Source: Egicoccus sp. AB-alg2 (GTDB lineage: Bacteria > Actinomycetota > Nitriliruptoria > Nitriliruptorales > Nitriliruptoraceae). Taken from it: a stretch of DNA of 64,000 bases. The first letter of the stretch is position 1; each line of letters opens with the position of its first letter. The stretch spans positions 124,001 through 188,000 of the forward strand of contig NZ_JBGUAX010000004.1 of assembly GCF_041821065.1 (NCBI RefSeq). Reading direction: 5' to 3'. The notes beneath the pieces are model-generated. The model worked only from the letters and a program-made list of their open reading frames with translations. It was not told the origin of the DNA and did no database searches. Both the position numbers and the translations under genes were made by a program. Shown one piece after another: positions 37,135-55,824 of this stretch.

Positions 37135-39310
<2,176 letters not shown>

Positions 39311-39381: not shown

Positions 39382-39393
39382 ATTGTGGACAAT
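39382..39393. promoter_or_regulatory. GntR-type operator A (galB/ligA divergent region)
   Basis: ATTGTGGACAAT is a perfect palindrome apart from its two central bases. It is one of five copies of ATTGT-NN-ACAAT in block 5 and fits the T-N-G-T...A-C-N-A pattern known for FadR/FCD-type GntR regulators. Its right half overlaps TGGACA, the presumed -35 of galB. Confidence 0.7.
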
Positions 39394-39421: not shown

Positions 39422-40156
39422 ATGACCAACGACACCGCGAACCTGTTGATCGTCAGCGCCCACGCCGCGGACTTCGTCTGGCGGGCGGGTGGCGCCGCCG
39501 CGCTCACGACCGCCCGCGGCGGCCGTGCCACCATCGTCTGCCTGTCGTACGGCGAGCGCGGTGAATCCGCACGCTACTGGCGCCAGGGGATGGACCTCGA
39601 CCAGGTCAAGGGCGCGCGGCACCGCGAAGCGGCCGCGGCGGCCGAGGTGCTCGGCGCCGAGCTGCGCACCCTCGACGTGGGCGACTACCCGATCGTGGAG
39701 ACCGACGAGCTGCTGGACCAGCTGGTGCGCATCTACCGCGAGGTGCAGCCCACGGTGGTGCTCACCCACACGACGGTCGACCCCTGGAACACCGACCATC
39801 CACTGGCCAGCCGGCTGGCGCAGAAGGCCCGGATCATCGCCCAGGCCCCCGGCTACCACCCCGGCGAGCAGGTGTTGGGCGCCCCGCCGGTGTTCCTCTT
39901 CGAGCCCCACCAGACCGAGTACTGCGAGTTCCGGCCCGAGGTGCTGCTCGACATCACCGAGGTGTGGGAGACCAAGCTCGCGGCCATGCGCTGCATGGAA
40001 GGCCAGGAGCACCTCTGGAACTACTACACCGACGTCGCCAAGCGGCGCGGGGTGCAGGCCAGGCGCAACTCCGGTCCCAACCTCGGCTTGAAGACCGACG
40101 CCATGGCCGAGGCCTACATGCGGGTCTTCCCGCAGGTCACCGACCAACTCGACTGA
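39422..40156 (+). CDS. galB: 4-oxalomesaconate hydratase, PIG-L/GalB type
   Basis: A 244-residue PIG-L/LmbE-fold protein. The metal region is IVSAHAADFVWRAGGAAAL (about residues 10-28), a GalB variant of the usual PHPDD motif, followed by GERGESARYWRQ and the WNTDHPLAS segment with the third metal histidine. GalB of Pseudomonas putida is a Zn hydratase of this fold that hydrates 4-oxalomesaconate in gallate degradation. Between a ring-cleavage enzyme and the LigK aldolase this assignment is well supported. A deacetylase role is the alternative from fold alone. The frame is open upstream, but ATG 39422 fits the family start. Confidence 0.87.
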   Translation: MTNDTANLLIVSAHAADFVWRAGGAAALTTARGGRATIVCLSYGERGESARYWRQGMDLDQVKGARHREAAAAAEVLGAELRTLDVGDYPIVETDELLDQLVRIYREVQPTVVLTHTTVDPWNTDHPLASRLAQKARIIAQAPGYHPGEQVLGAPPVFLFEPHQTEYCEFRPEVLLDITEVWETKLAAMRCMEGQEHLWNYYTDVAKRRGVQARRNSGPNLGLKTDAMAEAYMRVFPQVTDQLD

Positions 40157-40171: not shown

Positions 40172-40864
40172 ATGCGCAGGAACCTCGTCGTCCGCAGCAT
40201 CGAACGCGCCGACCCCGAGGTCATCGCCGAACTCGGGGAGGTGGGCGTCGCGACCGTGCACGAGGCGATGGGACGTATCGGGCTGCTGGGCACGCACTTG
40301 TCGCCGATCCAGCGCGGTGTCCGCATCGCCGGCTCGGCCGTGACGGTCAGTTGCCATCCGGGCGACAACCTGATGATCCACGCCGCGGTCGAGCAGGTGG
40401 CGGACGGCGACGTGCTGGTGGTCACCACCACCTCGCCATCGACGGACGGGATGTTCGGCGAGCTGCTCGCGACCTCGTTGCGCGCGCACGGCTGTGTCGG
40501 GCTGGTCATCGACGCCGGCGTCCGTGACGTCGCCGAACTCAACGAGCTCGGCTTCCCCGTCTGGGCCCGGGCCGTATCGGCGCAAGGTACGGTCAAGGCC
40601 ACCCCGGGCTCGGTCAACGTGCCCGTGGTCTGTGCTGGTGGCCTGGTCAACCCCGGTGACGTGGTGGTCGCAGACGACGACGGTGTGGTGGTCGTCCCGT
40701 TCGCGAGCGCCGCCGCCGCGAACGAGGCTGCCCGCAGCAGGCTCGAGCGGGAGGCAGCGACCCGGCAGCGACTCGCTGCCGGCGAGCTGGGGCTCGACCT
40801 CTACGGCCTGCGGCAACGACTGGAAGAACTCGGGGTCGCCTACGTCGACCGCCTGGACGACTGA
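40172..40864 (+). CDS. ligK: 4-carboxy-4-hydroxy-2-oxoadipate aldolase / oxaloacetate decarboxylase (LigK/GalC-like)
   Basis: A 230-residue class II pyruvate aldolase of the HMG/CHA aldolase (RraA-fold) family. It has [20 protein letters not shown] at the N-terminus, [20 protein letters not shown], the metal/pyruvate loop [12 protein letters not shown] and [12 protein letters not shown] (Arg and Asp at about 120-122), then [26 protein letters not shown]. It splits 4-carboxy-4-hydroxy-2-oxoadipate into pyruvate and oxaloacetate, the last step of the gallate/protocatechuate 4,5 pathway. ATG 40172 follows GGGAGGG and lies 16 bases after galB. Confidence 0.92.
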
Positions 40865-40872
40865 GGGAGATC

Positions 40873-41541
40873 ATGGCGAACGACGGAGGCCGGACGCTCG
40901 TTGCGAGCCTGCGCGACGACATCATGCGTGGGACGCTCGGGCCGGGCCAGCGGCTGGTGGAAGCCGAGCTCACCGAACGCTACGGCGTGACCCGCGGCGC
41001 GGTGCGTCAGGCGCTGATGAGCCTCGAGGGAGAGGGCCTGGTCGAGCGCGAACGCAACCGCGGTGCCCGCGTCCGCAGCATCAGCCTCGACGAGGCCATC
41101 GAGATCACCGAGGCACGCGCGGTGCTCGAAGGCCTCTGTGCGGCCAAGGCCGCGGTGAACGCGACGCCTCGGGAACGCGACGAGCTGCGCCGTCTCGGCG
41201 ACGTGATGGCGGCCGCCGTCGCCGCCGAGGACGTGATGCGCTACAGCTCCACCACGCAGGACCTCCACCGCTACGTCCGCGAGGTGGCGCGCCAGCAGAC
41301 GGTGGCCGACCTGCTCGATCGGCTGCGCTACCAGAGCGTGCGCTACCACTTCAGTGTCGCGCTGCTGCCCGGACGACCCAGCGTTGGGCTCGCCGAGCAC
41401 CGAGAGGTGATCGAGACGATCGTCGCCGGCGACGCCGACGCCGCCGAGGCGGTGATGCGCGGGCACCTGTTCAGCGTCATCGACGCCCTGCAGGCGCTGG
41501 CCGAGCGCGAGAGCGGCCATCTCGTACGTGCGAGCGGCTGA
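40873..41541 (+). CDS. GntR-family (FCD domain) transcriptional regulator 1
   Basis: A 222-residue regulator. The N-terminal winged HTH is LRDDIMRGTLGPGQRLVEAE, then LTERYGVTRGAVRQALMSLE and GLVERERNRGARV (about residues 10-70). The all-helical FCD effector domain follows, with DEAIEITEARAVLEGLCAAKA, a metal/ligand-binding set in STTQDLHRYV and AEHREVIETIVAGDADAAE, and a C-terminal GHLFSVIDAL. It is the third gene after galB and ligK, with 8 bases between. It is a candidate repressor for the ATTGT-NN-ACAAT operators; a pathway intermediate or pyruvate-like acid may be the inducer. Confidence 0.92.
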   Translation: MANDGGRTLVASLRDDIMRGTLGPGQRLVEAELTERYGVTRGAVRQALMSLEGEGLVERERNRGARVRSISLDEAIEITEARAVLEGLCAAKAAVNATPRERDELRRLGDVMAAAVAAEDVMRYSSTTQDLHRYVREVARQQTVADLLDRLRYQSVRYHFSVALLPGRPSVGLAEHREVIETIVAGDADAAEAVMRGHLFSVIDALQALAERESGHLVRASG

Positions 41542-46405: not shown

Positions 46406-46434
46406 ACTCAAGTAGCTGCCAACAAGATTGTCAA
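46406..46434 (-). promoter_or_regulatory. Promoter of the esterase-isomerase operon
   Basis: On the minus strand -35 TTGACA (46434-46429) lies inside operator C, and after 17 bases the -10 is TTGAGT (46411-46406), close to the actinobacterial TAGAGT type. The expected start is about 20 bases before ATG 46377. Repressor binding would block the -35. Confidence 0.5.
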
Positions 46435-46438
46435 CAAT
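46427..46438. promoter_or_regulatory. GntR-type operator C (esterase/MFS divergent region)
   Basis: ATTGTCAACAAT is a perfect match to the five-copy ATTGT-NN-ACAAT palindrome. It lies between divergent genes. On the plus strand a TAGGGT at 46453-46458, 16 bases beyond the operator-embedded TCAACA, is a plausible -10 for the MFS-metE-like-MBL operon. Confidence 0.7.
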
Positions 46439-47813: not shown

Positions 47814-48935
47814 ATGAACGACCGACCGCCGCCGTTCCGTGCCGACCACGTCGGCAGCCTGCTGCGCCCACCACGCCTGCTCGAGGCGCGCCAGCGACAC
47901 GCGGCCGGAGCATTCGACGCCGCGGAACTGCGTGCTGTCGAGGACGACGCCATCCGTGAGGTCGTCGCGCTGCAACGCGGCGTGGGGCTGTCGGCCGCCA
48001 CCGACGGGGAGTTCCGGCGGACCTCCTGGCACATGGACTTCATCTACCGGCTCGGCGGCATCACGCAGGCGGACGGGAAGATCGAGGTGCACTTCGAGAA
48101 CGAGGAGGGTGGCCTCGACTTCACCGCCGCGGCACTGGCGGTCACCGGACCGGTCGGACTCGACGAGCCGATCTTCGCCGACGACTTCGACTTCACGAAG
48201 TCGCTGGCCGACGAGGCCGGCATGGTCGCGAAGCTGACGATCCCGTCGCCAAGCATGGTGCACTACCGGGGCGGCCGAGCGGCCATCGATCCGGACGTGT
48301 ACCCCGACGAGGAGCAGTTCTGGGCGGATCTGACCCGCGCCTACCGCCACGAACTGCAGGCGATGGCCGAACGCGGCTGCCGCTACCTGCAGCTCGACGA
48401 CACCAGCCTGGCCTATCTCAACGACCCGACGCAGCGCGCCAGGATCGCCGACCTGGGCGGCGACGCCGAACACCAGCACGAGCACTACATCCGGCACCTC
48501 AACGAAGCGGTGGCCGATCGCCCTGAGGGCCTGCGCGTCACGACCCACCTGTGCCGGGGCAACTTCCGGTCGTCGTGGGCGGCATCGGGCAGCTACGACT
48601 TCGTCGCCGAGGCGCTCTTCAACGACCTCGACGTCGACGGCTTCTTCCTCGAGTACGACGACGAACGCTCCGGCGGCTTCCAGCCGCTGCGGTACGTACC
48701 GCCCGGCAAGCAGGTCGTCCTCGGGCTCGTCACGACGAAGCGACCCGCGCTCGAGTCGAAGGACGACCTCAAGCGCCGCATCGACGAGGCCAGCCGGTTC
48801 GTCCCCCTCGAGCAGTTGTGCCTGTCCCCGCAGTGCGGCTTCTCGTCGACGGTGGAGGGCAACGCCCTCACCTTCGACGAGCAGCGCGCCAAGCTCGAGC
48901 TGGTCGTCGAGACGGCCCAGGAGATCTGGGGGTGA
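47814..48935 (+). CDS. MetE C-terminal-domain-like cobalamin-independent methyltransferase
   Basis: A 373-residue protein of the MetE-C (YxjG/YxjH-like) family, about half the length of true MetE and lacking its N-terminal domain. It begins FRADHVGSLLRPPRLLEAR, contains ATDGEFRRTSWHMDF and YLQLDDTSLAYL, and keeps the Zn-thiol ligand set expected of the family: His and Cys in THLCRGN, Glu in FFLEYDDE and Cys in LSPQCGFSS. Such proteins move a methyl group to a thiol. In a regulon centred on aromatic O-demethylation it could drain methyl groups to homocysteine or another thiol. It is downstream of the MFS gene, with no operator of its own. Confidence 0.85.
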   Translation: MNDRPPPFRADHVGSLLRPPRLLEARQRHAAGAFDAAELRAVEDDAIREVVALQRGVGLSAATDGEFRRTSWHMDFIYRLGGITQADGKIEVHFENEEGGLDFTAAALAVTGPVGLDEPIFADDFDFTKSLADEAGMVAKLTIPSPSMVHYRGGRAAIDPDVYPDEEQFWADLTRAYRHELQAMAERGCRYLQLDDTSLAYLNDPTQRARIADLGGDAEHQHEHYIRHLNEAVADRPEGLRVTTHLCRGNFRSSWAASGSYDFVAEALFNDLDVDGFFLEYDDERSGGFQPLRYVPPGKQVVLGLVTTKRPALESKDDLKRRIDEASRFVPLEQLCLSPQCGFSSTVEGNALTFDEQRAKLELVVETAQEIWG

Positions 48936-48994
48936 CGCACCACCAGCCGTACCGTCGTGAGGAGTCCGACGCCCGCCGCTGAGGAGCGAGAACC

Positions 48995-49612
48995 GTGCGC
49001 ATCACCAAGTATCGGCAGTCCTGCCTCGTCGTCGAAGCCGACAACGGCGCCCGCCTGCTGTTGGACGCCGGCTACCACGTGACGCGCACGCGAGCGCTCG
49101 ACGAGTTGGGCAGCATCGACGCCGCGTTGTACTCGCACGAGCACCCCGACCACTTCGGCGAGGAGTGGGTCGGGCCGTTGCTCGAGCGAGGCGTGCCGGT
49201 GTTCGCCGAAGCGTCCGTGTGTTCGATGATCGGGAGCGCCGCGAACACCGTGCAGGGCGGCACGACCTTCGCGGCCGCCGAGGTGCCGGTGGCGGCCTAC
49301 GACCTGCCGCACATGCCGTTGGTCGACGGCCGACCGGGGCCGCCCAACCTCGGCTTCCTCATCGACGGCCGGCTGCTGCACCCCGGTGACGCGAAGGACC
49401 TCCGCGGCGTCGGTGCAGAGGTGCTGGCGACGCCCATCGCCGGGCCCAGCTGCAGCGCGCGTGACGCCTACCTCATGGTCGAGGCGAGCGGCGCGCGTGT
49501 GGCCGTGCCGGTCCACTACGACCACTTCCTCGCCGACCCAGAGCTGTTCGCCAAGCAGTGCCCGATCGCCGAGGTGGCCGTGCTGGACGACGGCCAGACC
49601 CTCGAGGTCTGA
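48995..49612 (+). CDS. Metallo-beta-lactamase-fold hydrolase (UlaG-like)
   Basis: A 205-residue MBL-fold protein. It starts ITKYRQSCLVVEADNGARLLLDAG, has the metal motif SHEHPDHFGEEW (H-x-H-x-D-H, about residues 48-59), a mid-chain DLPHMPL histidine, PGDAK (metal-bridging Asp) and the terminal VPVHYDHF. The size and order match UlaG-like lactonases and related proteins. A lactone or ester from ring-cleavage intermediates is possible but not shown. GTG 48995 is preceded by GAGGAG. It is convergent with the tannase-family gene. Confidence 0.83.
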   Translation: MRITKYRQSCLVVEADNGARLLLDAGYHVTRTRALDELGSIDAALYSHEHPDHFGEEWVGPLLERGVPVFAEASVCSMIGSAANTVQGGTTFAAAEVPVAAYDLPHMPLVDGRPGPPNLGFLIDGRLLHPGDAKDLRGVGAEVLATPIAGPSCSARDAYLMVEASGARVAVPVHYDHFLADPELFAKQCPIAEVAVLDDGQTLEV

Positions 49613-49677: not shown

Positions 49678-51279
49678 TCAGCCCTTGAAGCCCGGCGCCT
49701 TCATGCACCGGAAGCTCGCGGCGTCGTCCACGTCGCCGCGGAAGTAGCGGGACCAGGTCGGCCACTCGCAGGCCGGGCGGGTGCGGTCGGTGCCGCGCTC
49801 CTGCAGCACCACGTCGCGGGGAGCCTCGCCGTCGGCGGCCCACCGGTCGAGGATCTCGAGCCAGTCGACATCGTTCGGTCCGGCGCCACCACCGTGGTCC
49901 GCCTTCGGGACGGCGTAGGCGCGGAAGAACTTGTCGGTGCGGCCCTTGCCGAGCGTCTCCACCACCGAGGCGTGGTAGTCCAGCCCGGCGAGGGCGCTGC
50001 GGCCGTTGTCGCCGAGGTTCTCCTGCAGGATGAGCTTGCCGCCGCTCGCCGCGAAGGCCGACAGGTCGGGGTCGGTGGCGTCCACCATCTCGGAGACGGC
50101 GAGGATCCGCTCGCGCCACTCGGGTGCGTTGGGGTCGAAGCCGACGGTGTCGAAGTCGGGGTCCTGCGCGACGAAATAGCGGATGAAGTCGGCGCCGAGG
50201 CTCACCGTGAAGCCGGGGTTGCCGTTGGCGCCCATCACCCACTGACGCCAGTCGTTGCCTTCCCCACCGACCGGGAAGCCCGGGTAGCCGGGCACGCCGT
50301 TCGCCAGCGGGTAGTCGAGCACCATCGGGGCGTGGAACTGCTCGACGACGTCGATCTGCGCCTGCGTCAGGCAGCCCGTGGCCTCGCCGGCCTCGCACAG
50401 CAGCGCCTGGAAGTCGACGTGACAGTTCTGTGGGCGGCTGATGATGCCGTCCTCGAGCCCGTCCAGCCCGTCGCAGGTCGCGAGGGTCGTCGCGTGGAGC
50501 AGGTCGACCCCGGCGGGATCGATCCAGCCGCCCGTGAGGATCGGCTCCGCGAGCGCGTTGACGAACAACTGCTGTCCGGTGAAGTTCACGACCGGGACCC
50601 GGCTGAACACGCCGTCGTAGTCGGTCGGGAACCGCTGGGCCACCGTGAGCCCCTCGCGCCCACCCTGTGAGCTGCCGACGAAGTAGGTCTGCTCCGGTGC
50701 GCGCTCGTAGTGGGCCTCGATCAGCGACACCGCGACGTCGCGCGTCTTCTTGAGCGCCGCGTAGGCGAAGTTGACGAGCGATTCCTCGATCAGGGCGAAC
50801 GAACCGCCCGGGTGCACGGTGCTGCTGTGCCCGGAGTCACTGCCGAAGGTGGCGTAGCCCTGCTGCAGTGGCGTGGCGGTCCCGACCGGGGCCGAGGGGA
50901 CGCTCCCGGTCCCCGCCACGACGGTTCCGTTGTAGCCGCCGCCCCCGAAGTGGACGGCCTTGCCGTTCCAGGCCGTCGGGAGGTTCACCCGGAAGCGGAT
51001 GTCGGGCGCCTCCGGGTCGACCGGGGCGATCCGGCCCTCGACGAGGCAGTACGGCGCGGTGGCGCCCTGGGTGGACTCCCGTGCCGAGGTGACCTGCGCA
51101 CCCGACGTGGGCAGGCCGATGTCGGCGGCGTCGATCGTCGTGCCGGCGAGGTCCTCGCACGGGGTGTCTGCGGCTGCCGCGGCCGGCAGCGCTGTCGCCA
51201 CGAGGCCGACGGCCGACAGCGCCGCCAGGCTCCCTCGCCAGCGGCTCGCCCGCGCCCGGACAGCAGTTACTGCGCGCAT
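49678..51279 (-). CDS. Secreted tannase/feruloyl esterase-family hydrolase
   Basis: A 533-residue exported enzyme. The signal peptide ends LPAAAAADTP, and CEDLAGTTIDAA begins the mature chain, as in tannase-family proteins. The nucleophile elbow is YFVGSSQGGREG (catalytic Ser204) and the C-terminal histidine is His462 in KADHGGGAGPND; Asp424 in NLGDNG is the likely acid. Family members cleave galloyl or feruloyl esters. The usual Cys before the catalytic Ser and the Cys after the His are Ser203 and Gly463 here, so the characteristic disulfide is absent. It would release aromatic acids outside the cell for the TRAP or MFS importer. Ester preference unknown. Confidence 0.85.
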   Translation of the reverse strand: MRAVTAVRARASRWRGSLAALSAVGLVATALPAAAAADTPCEDLAGTTIDAADIGLPTSGAQVTSARESTQGATAPYCLVEGRIAPVDPEAPDIRFRVNLPTAWNGKAVHFGGGGYNGTVVAGTGSVPSAPVGTATPLQQGYATFGSDSGHSSTVHPGGSFALIEESLVNFAYAALKKTRDVAVSLIEAHYERAPEQTYFVGSSQGGREGLTVAQRFPTDYDGVFSRVPVVNFTGQQLFVNALAEPILTGGWIDPAGVDLLHATTLATCDGLDGLEDGIISRPQNCHVDFQALLCEAGEATGCLTQAQIDVVEQFHAPMVLDYPLANGVPGYPGFPVGGEGNDWRQWVMGANGNPGFTVSLGADFIRYFVAQDPDFDTVGFDPNAPEWRERILAVSEMVDATDPDLSAFAASGGKLILQENLGDNGRSALAGLDYHASVVETLGKGRTDKFFRAYAVPKADHGGGAGPNDVDWLEILDRWAADGEAPRDVVLQERGTDRTRPACEWPTWSRYFRGDVDDAASFRCMKAPGFKG

Positions 51280-51348: not shown

Positions 51349-51376
51349 AGCCTAGGAAGCGGCACAATCTTGTCAA
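51349..51376 (-). promoter_or_regulatory. Promoter of the tannase-family gene
   Basis: On the minus strand -35 TTGACA (51376-51371) is followed after 16 bases by TAGGCT (51354-51349), a good actinobacterial -10. The -35 lies inside operator D. The expected transcript has a leader of roughly 60 bases before ATG 51279. Confidence 0.6.
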
Positions 51377-51380
51377 CAAT
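51369..51380. promoter_or_regulatory. GntR-type operator D (tannase/gntR2 divergent region)
   Basis: CTTGTCAACAAT matches ATTGT-NN-ACAAT with one mismatch in the outer left base. It overlaps the -35 of the tannase-family gene. An additional ACAAT half-site lies at 51364-51368. Confidence 0.65.
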
Positions 51381-51460: not shown

Positions 51461-51690
51461 GCTTACGGCAGGCGACGGCTGGGACGGATGGCATGGAAAA
51501 GCCTCTATAGGAGATGCTGGGACGGGTTCTACAGGCGAGCATGGCCCGTGACGGCCTGCCGCCCATTCGTCTCTTGCATGCAGTCGTGGGCTGTGCCAGG
51601 ATCGCTGGCCAGATCGTGTGCGGCGGCCGGCGTGCGAGCGACGGCGCCGAGATCGCCGGCACAGAGCGACGAGCAGGGAGAGCCACCGTC

Positions 51691-52464
51691 GTGAGCTCAC
51701 TCCAGGAGCCACCCGCTTCACAGCGGATCAAGGCGCTGCTGGCGCTGCGCGAGTTGCTGCTCGGCGGCGCGTTCGCGCCTGGTGAGCGGCTCGCGGAGAT
51801 CCCGCTGTGCGAGCGGCTCGGGGTGTCGCGCACGCCGTTGCGGCTGGCCCTCATCAGCCTCGAGCACGAGGGGCTCGTGCGCCAGCACGGATCCGGCGGC
51901 TACGTCGTGCAGGACTTCAGTGTCGAGGACGTCGCGGATGCCATCGAACTGCGCGGAGTGCTCGAGGGCACGGCCGCCCGGTTCGCCGCCGAACGGCTGG
52001 ACGAACCGGCCTACCTGCTCCCGCTGCGGGAGGTCGTCGAGGAGGCCGACCGGCTCCTCCACGATGACGGCGGCACCGAGTGGGTGTTCGAGGACTACGT
52101 CGCGTTGAACGAACGGTTCCACGCACTGCTGCTGGGGCTCGCCGGCAGCGCCGTCCTGGAGCGGTCGCTCGAGCACGTGTTGGCCCTGCCCTTCGCTTCG
52201 CCCAATGCCCTCGTGAGCGCCCAGGGCCGCGGCGCGCGCCGCTGGATGACCGTCGCCCAGGAACAGCACCGGGCGATCGTGGACGCCATCGCCGCCCGCG
52301 AGGGGGCGCGTGCCGAAGCGGTGGCGAGGGAGCACGCACGGTTGGCCCGCCGCAACCTCGAGCAGGCGCTGGCCGCCGACGAGCCCCTGGCGACGGTGAT
52401 GCCCGGCGGCTCGCTGGTCCGCGCCGCTGCCCCGCCGGGCACCTGGCGCGACGCGTCTGGCTGA
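51691..52464 (+). CDS. GntR-family (FCD domain) transcriptional regulator 2
   Basis: A 257-residue GntR/FCD regulator. The winged HTH is LRELLLGGAFAPGERLAEIP, then LCERLGVSRTPLRLALISLE and GLVRQHGSGGYVVQDF (about residues 14-75). The FCD domain follows, with VEDVADAIELRGVLEGTAA, the DYVALNERFHALLLGLAG motif with the ligand-site Asn and His, and QEQHRAIVDAIAAREG. GTG 51691 is chosen because the upstream frame is non-conserved. It differs clearly from regulator 1 (40873). It is divergent from the tannase gene and upstream of metF, each with the ATTGT operator, so it is a second candidate for those sites. Confidence 0.9.
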   Translation: MSSLQEPPASQRIKALLALRELLLGGAFAPGERLAEIPLCERLGVSRTPLRLALISLEHEGLVRQHGSGGYVVQDFSVEDVADAIELRGVLEGTAARFAAERLDEPAYLLPLREVVEEADRLLHDDGGTEWVFEDYVALNERFHALLLGLAGSAVLERSLEHVLALPFASPNALVSAQGRGARRWMTVAQEQHRAIVDAIAAREGARAEAVAREHARLARRNLEQALAADEPLATVMPGGSLVRAAAPPGTWRDASG

Positions 52465-52468
52465 CGAA

Positions 52469-52501
52469 ATTGTTTACAATTTGGCGAACACCCACTACGG
52501 T
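52469..52501 (+). promoter_or_regulatory. GntR-type operator E and metF promoter
   Basis: ATTGTTTACAAT (52469-52480), flanked to give AAATTGTTTACAATTT, is the most extended copy of the palindrome. It contains -35 TTTACA (52473-52478); after 17 bases the -10 is TACGGT (52496-52501), identical in sequence and spacing to that of galB. It begins 5 bases after the gntR2 stop and drives the C1 operon. Confidence 0.7.
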
Positions 52502-54417: not shown

Positions 54418-55824
54418 ATGAGCAAGGAAAGCCTGAACGATCTGCTGCGCAGCGCGGGCAACCCCGTGGAACTGCTGCGAAACAACCAGGTGGGGCGGTA
54501 CGTCTACCCGACCAAGCCGCCGGAGTTCTCCAACTGGATCGACGAGCAGCGGGCCTGGACCGAGGACTGCATCCTCTACGACCAGACCTGGCACATGGAC
54601 AACATGTTCATCGAGGGTCCGGATGCCGAGCGCCTGCTCCGCGACCTCGGGATCAACACGTTCAACAACTTCGCCGTCGGCAAGGCCAAGCAGTACGTGC
54701 CGGTCAGCCACGACGGGTTCGTCATCGGCGACGGCATCCTGTTCCACCTCGAGGACGAGGTCTACGAGTTCGTCGGCCGCTCGCCGGCACCGAACTGGCT
54801 GCACTACAACGCGGAGTCGGGCGGCTACGACGTCCAGATCACCCGTGACCCGCGCGCGCCGTCCATCACGCTGGGCAAGCCGGTCACCCGCGAGCAGTAC
54901 CGGTTCCAGATCCAGGGCCCGAAGGCCGAGCAACTCATCCGCAAGCTGACCGGCGGCGACCTGCCCGACATCAAGTTCTTCAACTTCGACACCGTCAAGA
55001 TGGCGGGACGGCGCCTGCCGGCCCTGCGCCACGGCATGGCCGGGCAGCCGGGTCTCGAGGTGTGGGGACCCTACGAGGAGTACGACGAGGTCCGCGACGC
55101 GATCCTCGAGGCCGGTGAGGAGTTCGGCATCCGCCCGGTCGGTGCCCGCGCCTACTCGACCAACACCATCGAGTCGGGCTGGATCCCCTCACCGCTGCCG
55201 GCCGTCTACACCGGCGGGAAGATGGAGGGCTATCGCGACTGGCTGCCGGCCAACAGCCTCGAGGGGCGTGGCGGCACCATCGCCGGGAGCTACGTCTCGG
55301 ACGACATCGAGGACTACTACCTGACGCCGTACGAGATGGGATACGGCCACATGGTGAAGTTCGACCACGACTTCGTCGGCCGCGATGCCCTCGAGTCGAT
55401 GGACAAGGAGTCGCAGCGGCGCAAGGTGACGCTCGCCTGGAACGCCGAGGACGTGCTGAAGACCTGGGCCTCGCTGTTCAGCGACGAGGTGCCCTACAAG
55501 TACCTCGACCTGCCCCAGAGCGTGTACGGATCGGCTAGCTACGACCGCGTCCTCCACGACGGCAATGACGCCGGCCTGTCGCTGTTCACCGGCTACACCT
55601 TCAACGAGCGCACCTTCCTGTCGCTGGCGGTCATCGACCCGTCGATCGACGTCGGCACCGAGGTGAAGGTCGTCTGGGGCGAGCCCGACGGCGGGACCCG
55701 CAAGCTCAGCGCCGAGCGCCCACACCGCCAGATCGAGATCCGCGCCACCGTCAGCCCCGTGCCCTACTCGCGGGAGGCCCGCGAGCACTACGCCGAGGGC
55801 TGGCGCACCGCCGGTCGCGCCTGA
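54418..55824 (+). CDS. ligM: Tetrahydrofolate-dependent aromatic O-demethylase (LigM-like)
   Basis: A 468-residue GcvT-fold (aminomethyltransferase-family) protein whose length and N-terminus (LRNNQVGRYVYPTKPPEFSN) match LigM, the vanillate/3-O-methylgallate O-demethylase of Sphingobium. Active-site residues I recall from the LigM structure (Tyr31, Gln57, His60, Val120, Arg122, Tyr247) appear here each one position lower: Tyr30, Gln56, His59, Val119, Arg121, Tyr246. The reaction moves the methyl of an aryl methyl ether to THF, giving 5-methyl-THF and a catechol-type acid. Flanking metF, purU, folD and folC complete the THF cycle. DesA-type syringate activity is possible. Confidence 0.87.
   Translation: MSKESLNDLLRSAGNPVELLRNNQVGRYVYPTKPPEFSNWIDEQRAWTEDCILYDQTWHMDNMFIEGPDAERLLRDLGINTFNNFAVGKAKQYVPVSHDGFVIGDGILFHLEDEVYEFVGRSPAPNWLHYNAESGGYDVQITRDPRAPSITLGKPVTREQYRFQIQGPKAEQLIRKLTGGDLPDIKFFNFDTVKMAGRRLPALRHGMAGQPGLEVWGPYEEYDEVRDAILEAGEEFGIRPVGARAYSTNTIESGWIPSPLPAVYTGGKMEGYRDWLPANSLEGRGGTIAGSYVSDDIEDYYLTPYEMGYGHMVKFDHDFVGRDALESMDKESQRRKVTLAWNAEDVLKTWASLFSDEVPYKYLDLPQSVYGSASYDRVLHDGNDAGLSLFTGYTFNERTFLSLAVIDPSIDVGTEVKVVWGEPDGGTRKLSAERPHRQIEIRATVSPVPYSREAREHYAEGWRTAGRA

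Follow-up and report, generated by a model that had tools for sequence, protein, structure and literature searches.

Gene content of the locus

The window, that is, the whole 64-kb stretch of DNA that was analyzed, carries on its minus strand a gene of the tannase/feruloyl esterase family (Table 1). The encoded protein matches the PF07519 profile with 388.7 bits (cut-off, 29.8) over profile positions 1 to 490 of 490, and a profile search of the 4.84-Mb genome returned this gene as the sole PF07519 match. None of the NCBIfam models matched the protein. A purine-rich stretch (AGGAAGGGAGAG) precedes the start codon, and the basic and then hydrophobic N terminus indicates that the esterase is probably secreted.

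Divergent from or near the tannase gene lie a gene for a GntR-FCD regulator, an MTHFR-like gene, purU, ligM, and two ORFs named by eye as folD- and folC-like. Further to the left are ligB, ligA, a PIG-L-family gene, which may have a GalB-like role, ligK, the second of the two GntR-FCD genes of the window (40873-41541; 40873 type), and a TRAP transporter. No other gene of the genome matched NF047885 above its cut-off than ligM. According to a passage of PMC6888825, LigM of Sphingobium SYK-6 carries out the tetrahydrofolate-dependent demethylation of vanillate and 3-O-methylgallate and is encoded in an operon with metF. Positions 47814 to 49612 hold a MetE-like gene (NF005085/PRK06520 subfamily, over the cut-off) followed by a gene for a small metallo-beta-lactamase (MBL)-fold hydrolase; both are kept beside the tannase gene of the same-genus genome G003, at 88% and 83%, respectively. 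Scans for consensus promoters and terminators found none.

Table 1. Features of the window discussed in the text
Feature	Position	Strand	Remarks
LigB, class III extradiol dioxygenase beta subunit	38110..38949	minus	
LigA, dioxygenase alpha subunit	38942..39310	minus	122 aa; PF07746, 115.7 bits
Putative operator copy ATTGTGGACAAT	39382..39393		Between ligA (minus) and PIG-L gene (plus); core 39383-39392
PIG-L-family gene	39422..40156	plus	ORF listed from 39383; start by eye
LigK, 4-carboxy-4-hydroxy-2-oxoadipate aldolase	40172..40864	plus	TIGR02798, 325.6 bits (cut-off, 304.5)
Putative operator copy ATTGTCAACAAT	46427..46438		Between alpha/beta hydrolase (minus) and MFS gene (plus); core 46428-46437
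Tannase/feruloyl esterase-family gene (PF07519) without the triad disulfide	49678..51279	minus	533 aa; ATG start
Codons of catalytic His462 and Gly463	49891..49896	minus	Gly463 at the aligned position of the His-side Cys; loop shorter by one residue
Codons of ENLGD, Glu420 to catalytic Asp424	50008..50022	minus	Position 420 most often His in the family
Codons of Ser203 and nucleophile Ser204	50668..50673	minus	Cys at position 203 in 61 of the 102 rows
Putative signal peptide, residues 1 to 37	51169..51279	minus	Basic n-region before a hydrophobic core; hydropathy peaks at residue 17
Putative operator 12-mer CTTGTCAACAAT	51369..51380		90 bp before the tannase start; core TTGTCAACAA at 51370-51379
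GntR-FCD regulator ORF	51514..52464	plus	Likely GTG start at 51691, start by eye; candidate operator binder
Putative operator copy ATTGTTTACAAT	52469..52480		Before MTHFR-like gene, purU, ligM, folD, and folC; core 52470-52479
LigM, vanillate/3-O-methylgallate O-demethylase	54418..55824	plus	NF047885, 717.2 bits (cut-off, 580)

Active-site residues of the tannase-family protein

The triad Ser204, Asp424, and His462 is present in the order expected of the family. The nucleophile motif reads GSSQGG, with SSQGG beginning at residue 203 and thus Ser203 before the nucleophile; the acid motif reads QENLGD, with ENLGD spanning Glu420 to Asp424; and the histidine motif reads ADHGGG, with DHGGG beginning at residue 461 and thus Gly463 after the catalytic histidine. 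Translation and alignment bear out the proposal of the initial annotation, in residues and coordinates alike, that both cysteines of the CS-D-HC motif are changed, to Ser203 and Gly463, and the protein accordingly falls outside the CS-D-HC subset. The aspartates of the calcium loop (Asp270, Asp273, and Asp277) are kept, and so are the eight cysteines at the positions of the four remaining disulfides (Cys41, Cys78, Cys269, Cys286, Cys295, Cys303, Cys504, and Cys525). The gene evolves under purifying selection, with a dN/dS of 0.22 in comparison with its G003 relative L003 (0.18 for ligM and 0.18 for the MBL gene). An AlphaFold2 model computed from a four-sequence alignment had a mean pLDDT of 54.2, with residues 204 to 207, 422 to 431, and 459 to 469 each below 50, and was too uncertain to be of use.

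Distribution of the cysteine loss among relatives

Two relatives are encoded in G003, L003 with 82% and L009 with 59% identity to the window protein; both read GSSQGG, and both are without the cysteine after the histidine. G003 also contains a weak third PF07519 match that falls below the cut-off (L038, G003:C1:2233976-2234140; 4.4e-4). Scanning of named genomes with the window protein, L003, and L009 found three further relatives, with 37 to 41% identity, in a member of the Caulobacteraceae, Acidovorax sp. CF316, and a member of the Rhodanobacteraceae, and all three are without the cysteine pair. Wider searches gave PF07519 matches in 24 of 396 genomes from the phylum of the window and matches to the profile of the cysteine-less clade in 12 of 369 genomes from the class to which Acidovorax sp. 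CF316 belongs. Matches also came from 33 of 300 genomes of the order of that strain, from 24 of 385 genomes belonging to the class of the Caulobacteraceae member, and from 163 plasmid records, 19 of which were taken in. Among viral contigs, no relative was found.

After four ORF matches with a shorter matched part had been left out, the set came to 104 distinct proteins, each matched over at least 380 aa; 61 have both cysteines, 42 have neither, and 1 (L079) has only that on the histidine side. L007 and L017, which belong to a distant GISNGG group and are likewise without the pair, were also left out, and the remaining 102 family rows comprise 61 with both cysteines, 40 with neither, and 1 with only the cysteine after the histidine. 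This sample is nonrandom, having been drawn mostly from searches with the profile of the cysteine-less clade or with the window protein, and the 40 of 102 is thus not the frequency in the family. The sole single-sided case, L079 (G1113:C7:4229-5680), reads GGS on the serine side and HC on the histidine side. After the catalytic histidine, L103 is aligned with alanine and L105 with glycine.

None of the 40 cysteine-less rows has lost a residue of the triad or any of the three calcium-loop aspartates, and all eight other family cysteines are found in 36 of them, the exceptions being three rows with N-terminal gaps and L126. Because the other cysteines are kept, only one disulfide is missing, and the proteins still look oxidatively folded and exported. 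Relocation to the cytoplasm as the cause of the loss is disfavored by these retained cysteines and by the six N termini inspected, which are hydrophobic. An isolated mutation in the window gene is ruled out by L003, L009, and the clade described below.

Two members of the family depart from it at the triad. L069 (G757:C12:71097-72428) keeps both active-site cysteines and has the triad replaced (Ser by His, Asp by Glu, and His by Met); it looks like a pseudoenzyme and a mirror image of the cysteine-less proteins. L091 (G905:C221:37874-39313) has glycine for the catalytic serine and keeps both cysteines.

Phylogeny of the cysteine-less proteins

In a tree built with columns 203 and 463 removed, 39 of the 40 cysteine-less rows form one clade (UFBoot/SH-aLRT, 99/88), 38 of them with support of 100/99. 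The clade has three cysteine-bearing rows as its sister group (support of the 42 rows together, 100/99) and lies deep among cysteine-bearing lineages. Its members span the Pseudomonadota, the genus of the window, and a plasmid gene of the actinomycete Rhodococcus qingshengii (L103). The cysteine-less subgroup is old and widespread, and it is far larger and older than the window gene alone. The suggestion of the initial annotation that the change marks an evolved subgroup rather than a random mutation is thereby supported: 39 of the 102 rows share a clade with signature residues of its own, and the closest relatives found, L003 and L009, which might have kept both cysteines, lack both.

The one cysteine-less row outside the clade is L011, from another genome of the phylum of the window. 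A single clade of all 40 rows, a group defined by the trait after the tree had been seen, was rejected (p-AU, 2.8e-47), so L011 lost its cysteine pair separately. That the change was a loss rather than a gain follows, in a tree whose root was not inferred, from the nesting among cysteine-bearing lineages and from the commonness of the pair elsewhere.

It had also been proposed that the two cysteines were lost as a pair. Both are indeed absent together in the 40 cysteine-less rows, and by rows the co-loss is striking, yet it goes back to only two losses of both cysteines and one single-sided loss; among independent pairs, two changed the same way, none the opposite way, and one showed no difference (p, 0.5).

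Loop length, signature residues, and the ENLGD motif

The distance from His462 to Trp480 is 18 in the window protein and in 19 of the 40 cysteine-less rows in all, compared with none of the 61 cysteine-bearing rows, 48 of which have a distance of 19. An example is L003, with HSGGAGPN, aligned with the cysteine-bearing L004, with HCSGGPGPN. The shorter loop suggests that the histidine-side cysteine of the window protein was probably deleted, not substituted, in which case Gly463 would be the former next residue.

Several further positions distinguish the 39-row clade from the 61 cysteine-bearing rows: Asn170 (39 of 39 versus 11%), Lys177 (95% versus 2%), Asp181 (97% versus 2%), and Ser149 (95% versus 15%). 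On a signature of 19 positions, which was selected on these same rows and is descriptive rather than a test, 38 of the 40 cysteine-less rows score at least 11 and all 61 cysteine-bearing rows at most 6; L051 scores 8 and L011 scores 1.

Glutamate in place of the usual histidine at position 420 is found in nine cysteine-less rows including the window protein, which form a subclade (92/83), and in one cysteine-bearing row, L137. The ENLGD stretch had been read correctly and lies at residues 420 to 424, but its coupling to the cysteine loss does not hold, as 27 of the 40 cysteine-less rows keep the histidine. Glu420 is a second, later change, separate from the loss of the cysteines.

Possible, though in our view doubtful, is a scenario in which an ancient tannase branch spanning Pseudomonadota and Actinomycetota lost the disulfide once and had its Ser-His pair restabilized by other means, the disulfide being dispensable under oxidizing conditions and the acid network of the Glu420 subclade being tuned to hydroxybenzoate esters. 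It is with similar hesitation that we name Asn170, Lys177, Asp181, Ser149, and Tyr455 of the signature, together with Glu420 in the subclade of the window protein, as the residues that might provide this restabilization.

Comparison with characterized enzymes

A disulfide beside the triad was reportedly described by Suzuki in 2014 in AoFaeB, the feruloyl esterase of Aspergillus oryzae (PDB 3WMT). This PF07519 enzyme was matched by the clade profile at 1.2e-46; its Cys202-Cys458 bridge, which joins Ser203 and His457 according to a passage of PMC6986724, is absent in the window protein. In passages of Palm 2019 (PMC6461665), the bridge is noted in PDB 3WMT and 6G21, and the Ser-His disulfide is called typical of the family, with more than 80% conservation, a figure that already implies its absence in some members. 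In the PDB, the window protein is closest to MHETase and to fungal feruloyl esterases/carboxylic ester hydrolases. The clade profile matched 12 PDB sequences, and the five inspected, all MHETase, have both cysteines.

MHETase of Ideonella sakaiensis (PDB 6QZ1, 6JTT, and others) has PF07519 in common with the window protein, along with the GxSxGG and histidine motifs, which follow one another in the same order, the CDxxDGxxDG loop, and the C-terminal RTRPxC motif. In contrast to Ser203 and Gly463 of the window protein, it has Cys224-Cys529 beside the triad, per a passage of PMC7568301, and its sequence reads GCSEGG and HCSGG. The same source (Knott 2020) states that the ten cysteines are highly conserved across 6,671 sequences and that bridge-less MHETase variants either ended up in inclusion bodies or failed to express. 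Tan410, a PF07519 esterase of bacterial origin from a soil metagenome, has a signal peptide and, as reported in PMC7936011, hydrolyzes esters of gallate, protocatechuate, and vanillate; it carries the CS-D-HC motif that the window protein is without.

Members of the same cysteine-less clade are encoded on pAt of Agrobacterium fabrum C58, in Variovorax sp. SRS16, and on plasmids of Rhodococcus qingshengii, where they are annotated only as tannase/feruloyl esterase family. The Glu420 motif of the window protein is shared by the Variovorax relative but not by those of A. fabrum C58 or R. qingshengii. Within the titles, opening parts of abstracts, and some passages of the open-licence literature, no description of this cysteine-less clade was found. 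A natural clade that is without the bridge and keeps the rest poses directly the question of what the Ser-His disulfide does. Its members, with one disulfide less, are also candidate esterases for production in bacterial hosts, which may be relevant to the processing of tannins, lignin-derived compounds, and PET intermediates.

A putative operator shared within the window

The palindrome core TTGTNNACAA occurs at exactly four sites in the genome, and all four lie within the window. The initial annotation had placed an operator, its operator D, before the tannase gene, and at the level of sequence this candidate site is confirmed (Table 1). A reversed control pattern of the 10-mer core has three genome sites versus four for the core, so the number of sites is unremarkable; their confinement to 64 kb is the point. 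The 12-mer ATTGTNNACAAT has three sites, compared with none for its control. When up to two mismatches to the 12-mer were allowed, the window contained five matches versus 2.15 expected, a number reached in 7 of 100 shuffles and not significant. The palindrome is probably bound by one or the other of the GntR-FCD proteins encoded in the window.

The orthologous locus in G003 (L147) keeps ligM, purU, folD, the MBL, MetE-like, MFS, and hydrolase genes, the GntR gene of the 40873 type, and the TRAP transporter at 83 to 93%, along with the MTHFR-like gene at 81% and a partial folC match at 69%; a GntR regulator gene adjoins that for L003. Although G003 keeps the neighborhood, its operator sites are poorly preserved, which counts against a regulon. 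The 12-mer has one perfect site there, at the hydrolase/MFS position, and one with a single mismatch, while the site at the tannase gene, ATCGTTGACAAC, has two mismatches. No site within two mismatches of the 12-mer was found upstream of the ligM operon of G003, nor was an operator site found for its second tannase copy.

Proposed function and alternatives

Building on the observed sequence, clade, motif loss, shared palindrome, and pathway genes, we favor, as moderately probable, the reading that the gene encodes a probably secreted tannase-family esterase, free of the triad disulfide, for hydroxybenzoate esters (of the vanillate, protocatechuate, gallate, or O-methylgallate type), which would feed O-demethylation by LigM and ring cleavage by LigAB/LigK under control of the palindrome. 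Such a serine esterase would rely on the usual charge relay and, with its nucleophile and histidine loops untethered, release the hydroxybenzoate from its ester; it keeps the oxyanion-region glycines, the triad, the aspartates of the calcium loop, and the cysteines for the remaining four disulfides. The freed acid would be taken up into the cell and O-demethylated by LigM with tetrahydrofolate, and its ring would be opened by LigAB, the route ending with LigK and leading to central metabolites. One of the two GntR-FCD proteins may control these genes via the one palindrome. Export, substrate class, regulator, and catalytic competence are the predicted parts of this explanation. That Tan410 acts on esters of gallate, protocatechuate, and vanillate lends plausibility to the substrate class, though no proof; to our knowledge, no activity has been assigned to any member of the cysteine-less clade. 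The local palindrome offers a simple route from the inducer to the natural substrate.

Ferulate degradation gives vanillate, a LigM substrate, and the protein might accordingly be a feruloyl (hydroxycinnamate) esterase acting on a ferulate-like ester, with vanillate reached after side-chain shortening. MHETase and the fungal feruloyl esterases, as best PDB matches, fit such an activity, but neither a feruloyl-CoA synthetase nor an enoyl-CoA hydratase/aldolase is among the annotated window genes, which are a subset of the ORFs, and we consider a hydroxycinnamate substrate unlikely. A different ester altogether (a sugar ester, a short-chain ester, or a synthetic aromatic one such as an MHET-like compound), with the gene only loosely a member of the regulon, is improbable in view of the palindrome common to the ligM, ligA, and PIG-L/ligK promoters and its four exact genome sites. 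In its favor are the poorly preserved operator sites of G003 and MHETase as the nearest solved relative (E value, 3.1e-42), whose specificity is set almost wholly by the lid according to a passage of PMC6461665; specificity is not readable from the sequence of the window protein.

Finally, the loss of a normally conserved feature, together with the insoluble or unexpressed MHETase variants without the bridge in the cited part of PMC7568301, might point to a decaying or inactive protein in which the missing disulfide reflects relaxed constraint. With the low dN/dS, the triad intact throughout the 40 cysteine-less rows, and an old and diverse clade set against it, decay seems very improbable to us, and an active hydroxybenzoate esterase remains our preferred reading.

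Neighborhoods of the relatives were surveyed for LigA, LigB, LigC, LigK, or LigM within 10.5 kb of each locus or within the shorter available flank. Such neighbors were found at 4 of 40 cysteine-less loci (L039, L147, L159, and L204; the window not counted) and at 2 of 35 cysteine-bearing loci (L175 and L187), so a special link between cysteine-less enzymes and ring cleavage was not shown. Five of the eight other loci of the Glu420 subclade are without pathway markers in these flanks (L148, L149, L150, L160, and L115, the last with a flank of 5 kb), and L101 has an annotated 4-oxalomesaconate tautomerase as its sole marker. At L204 (G353:C3:1342500-1362400), some 3.5 kb separate a LigM-like gene (59% identical) from the gene for L011, which lost its cysteine pair independently; proximity to LigM is common to L011 and the window enzyme, these being two cases only.
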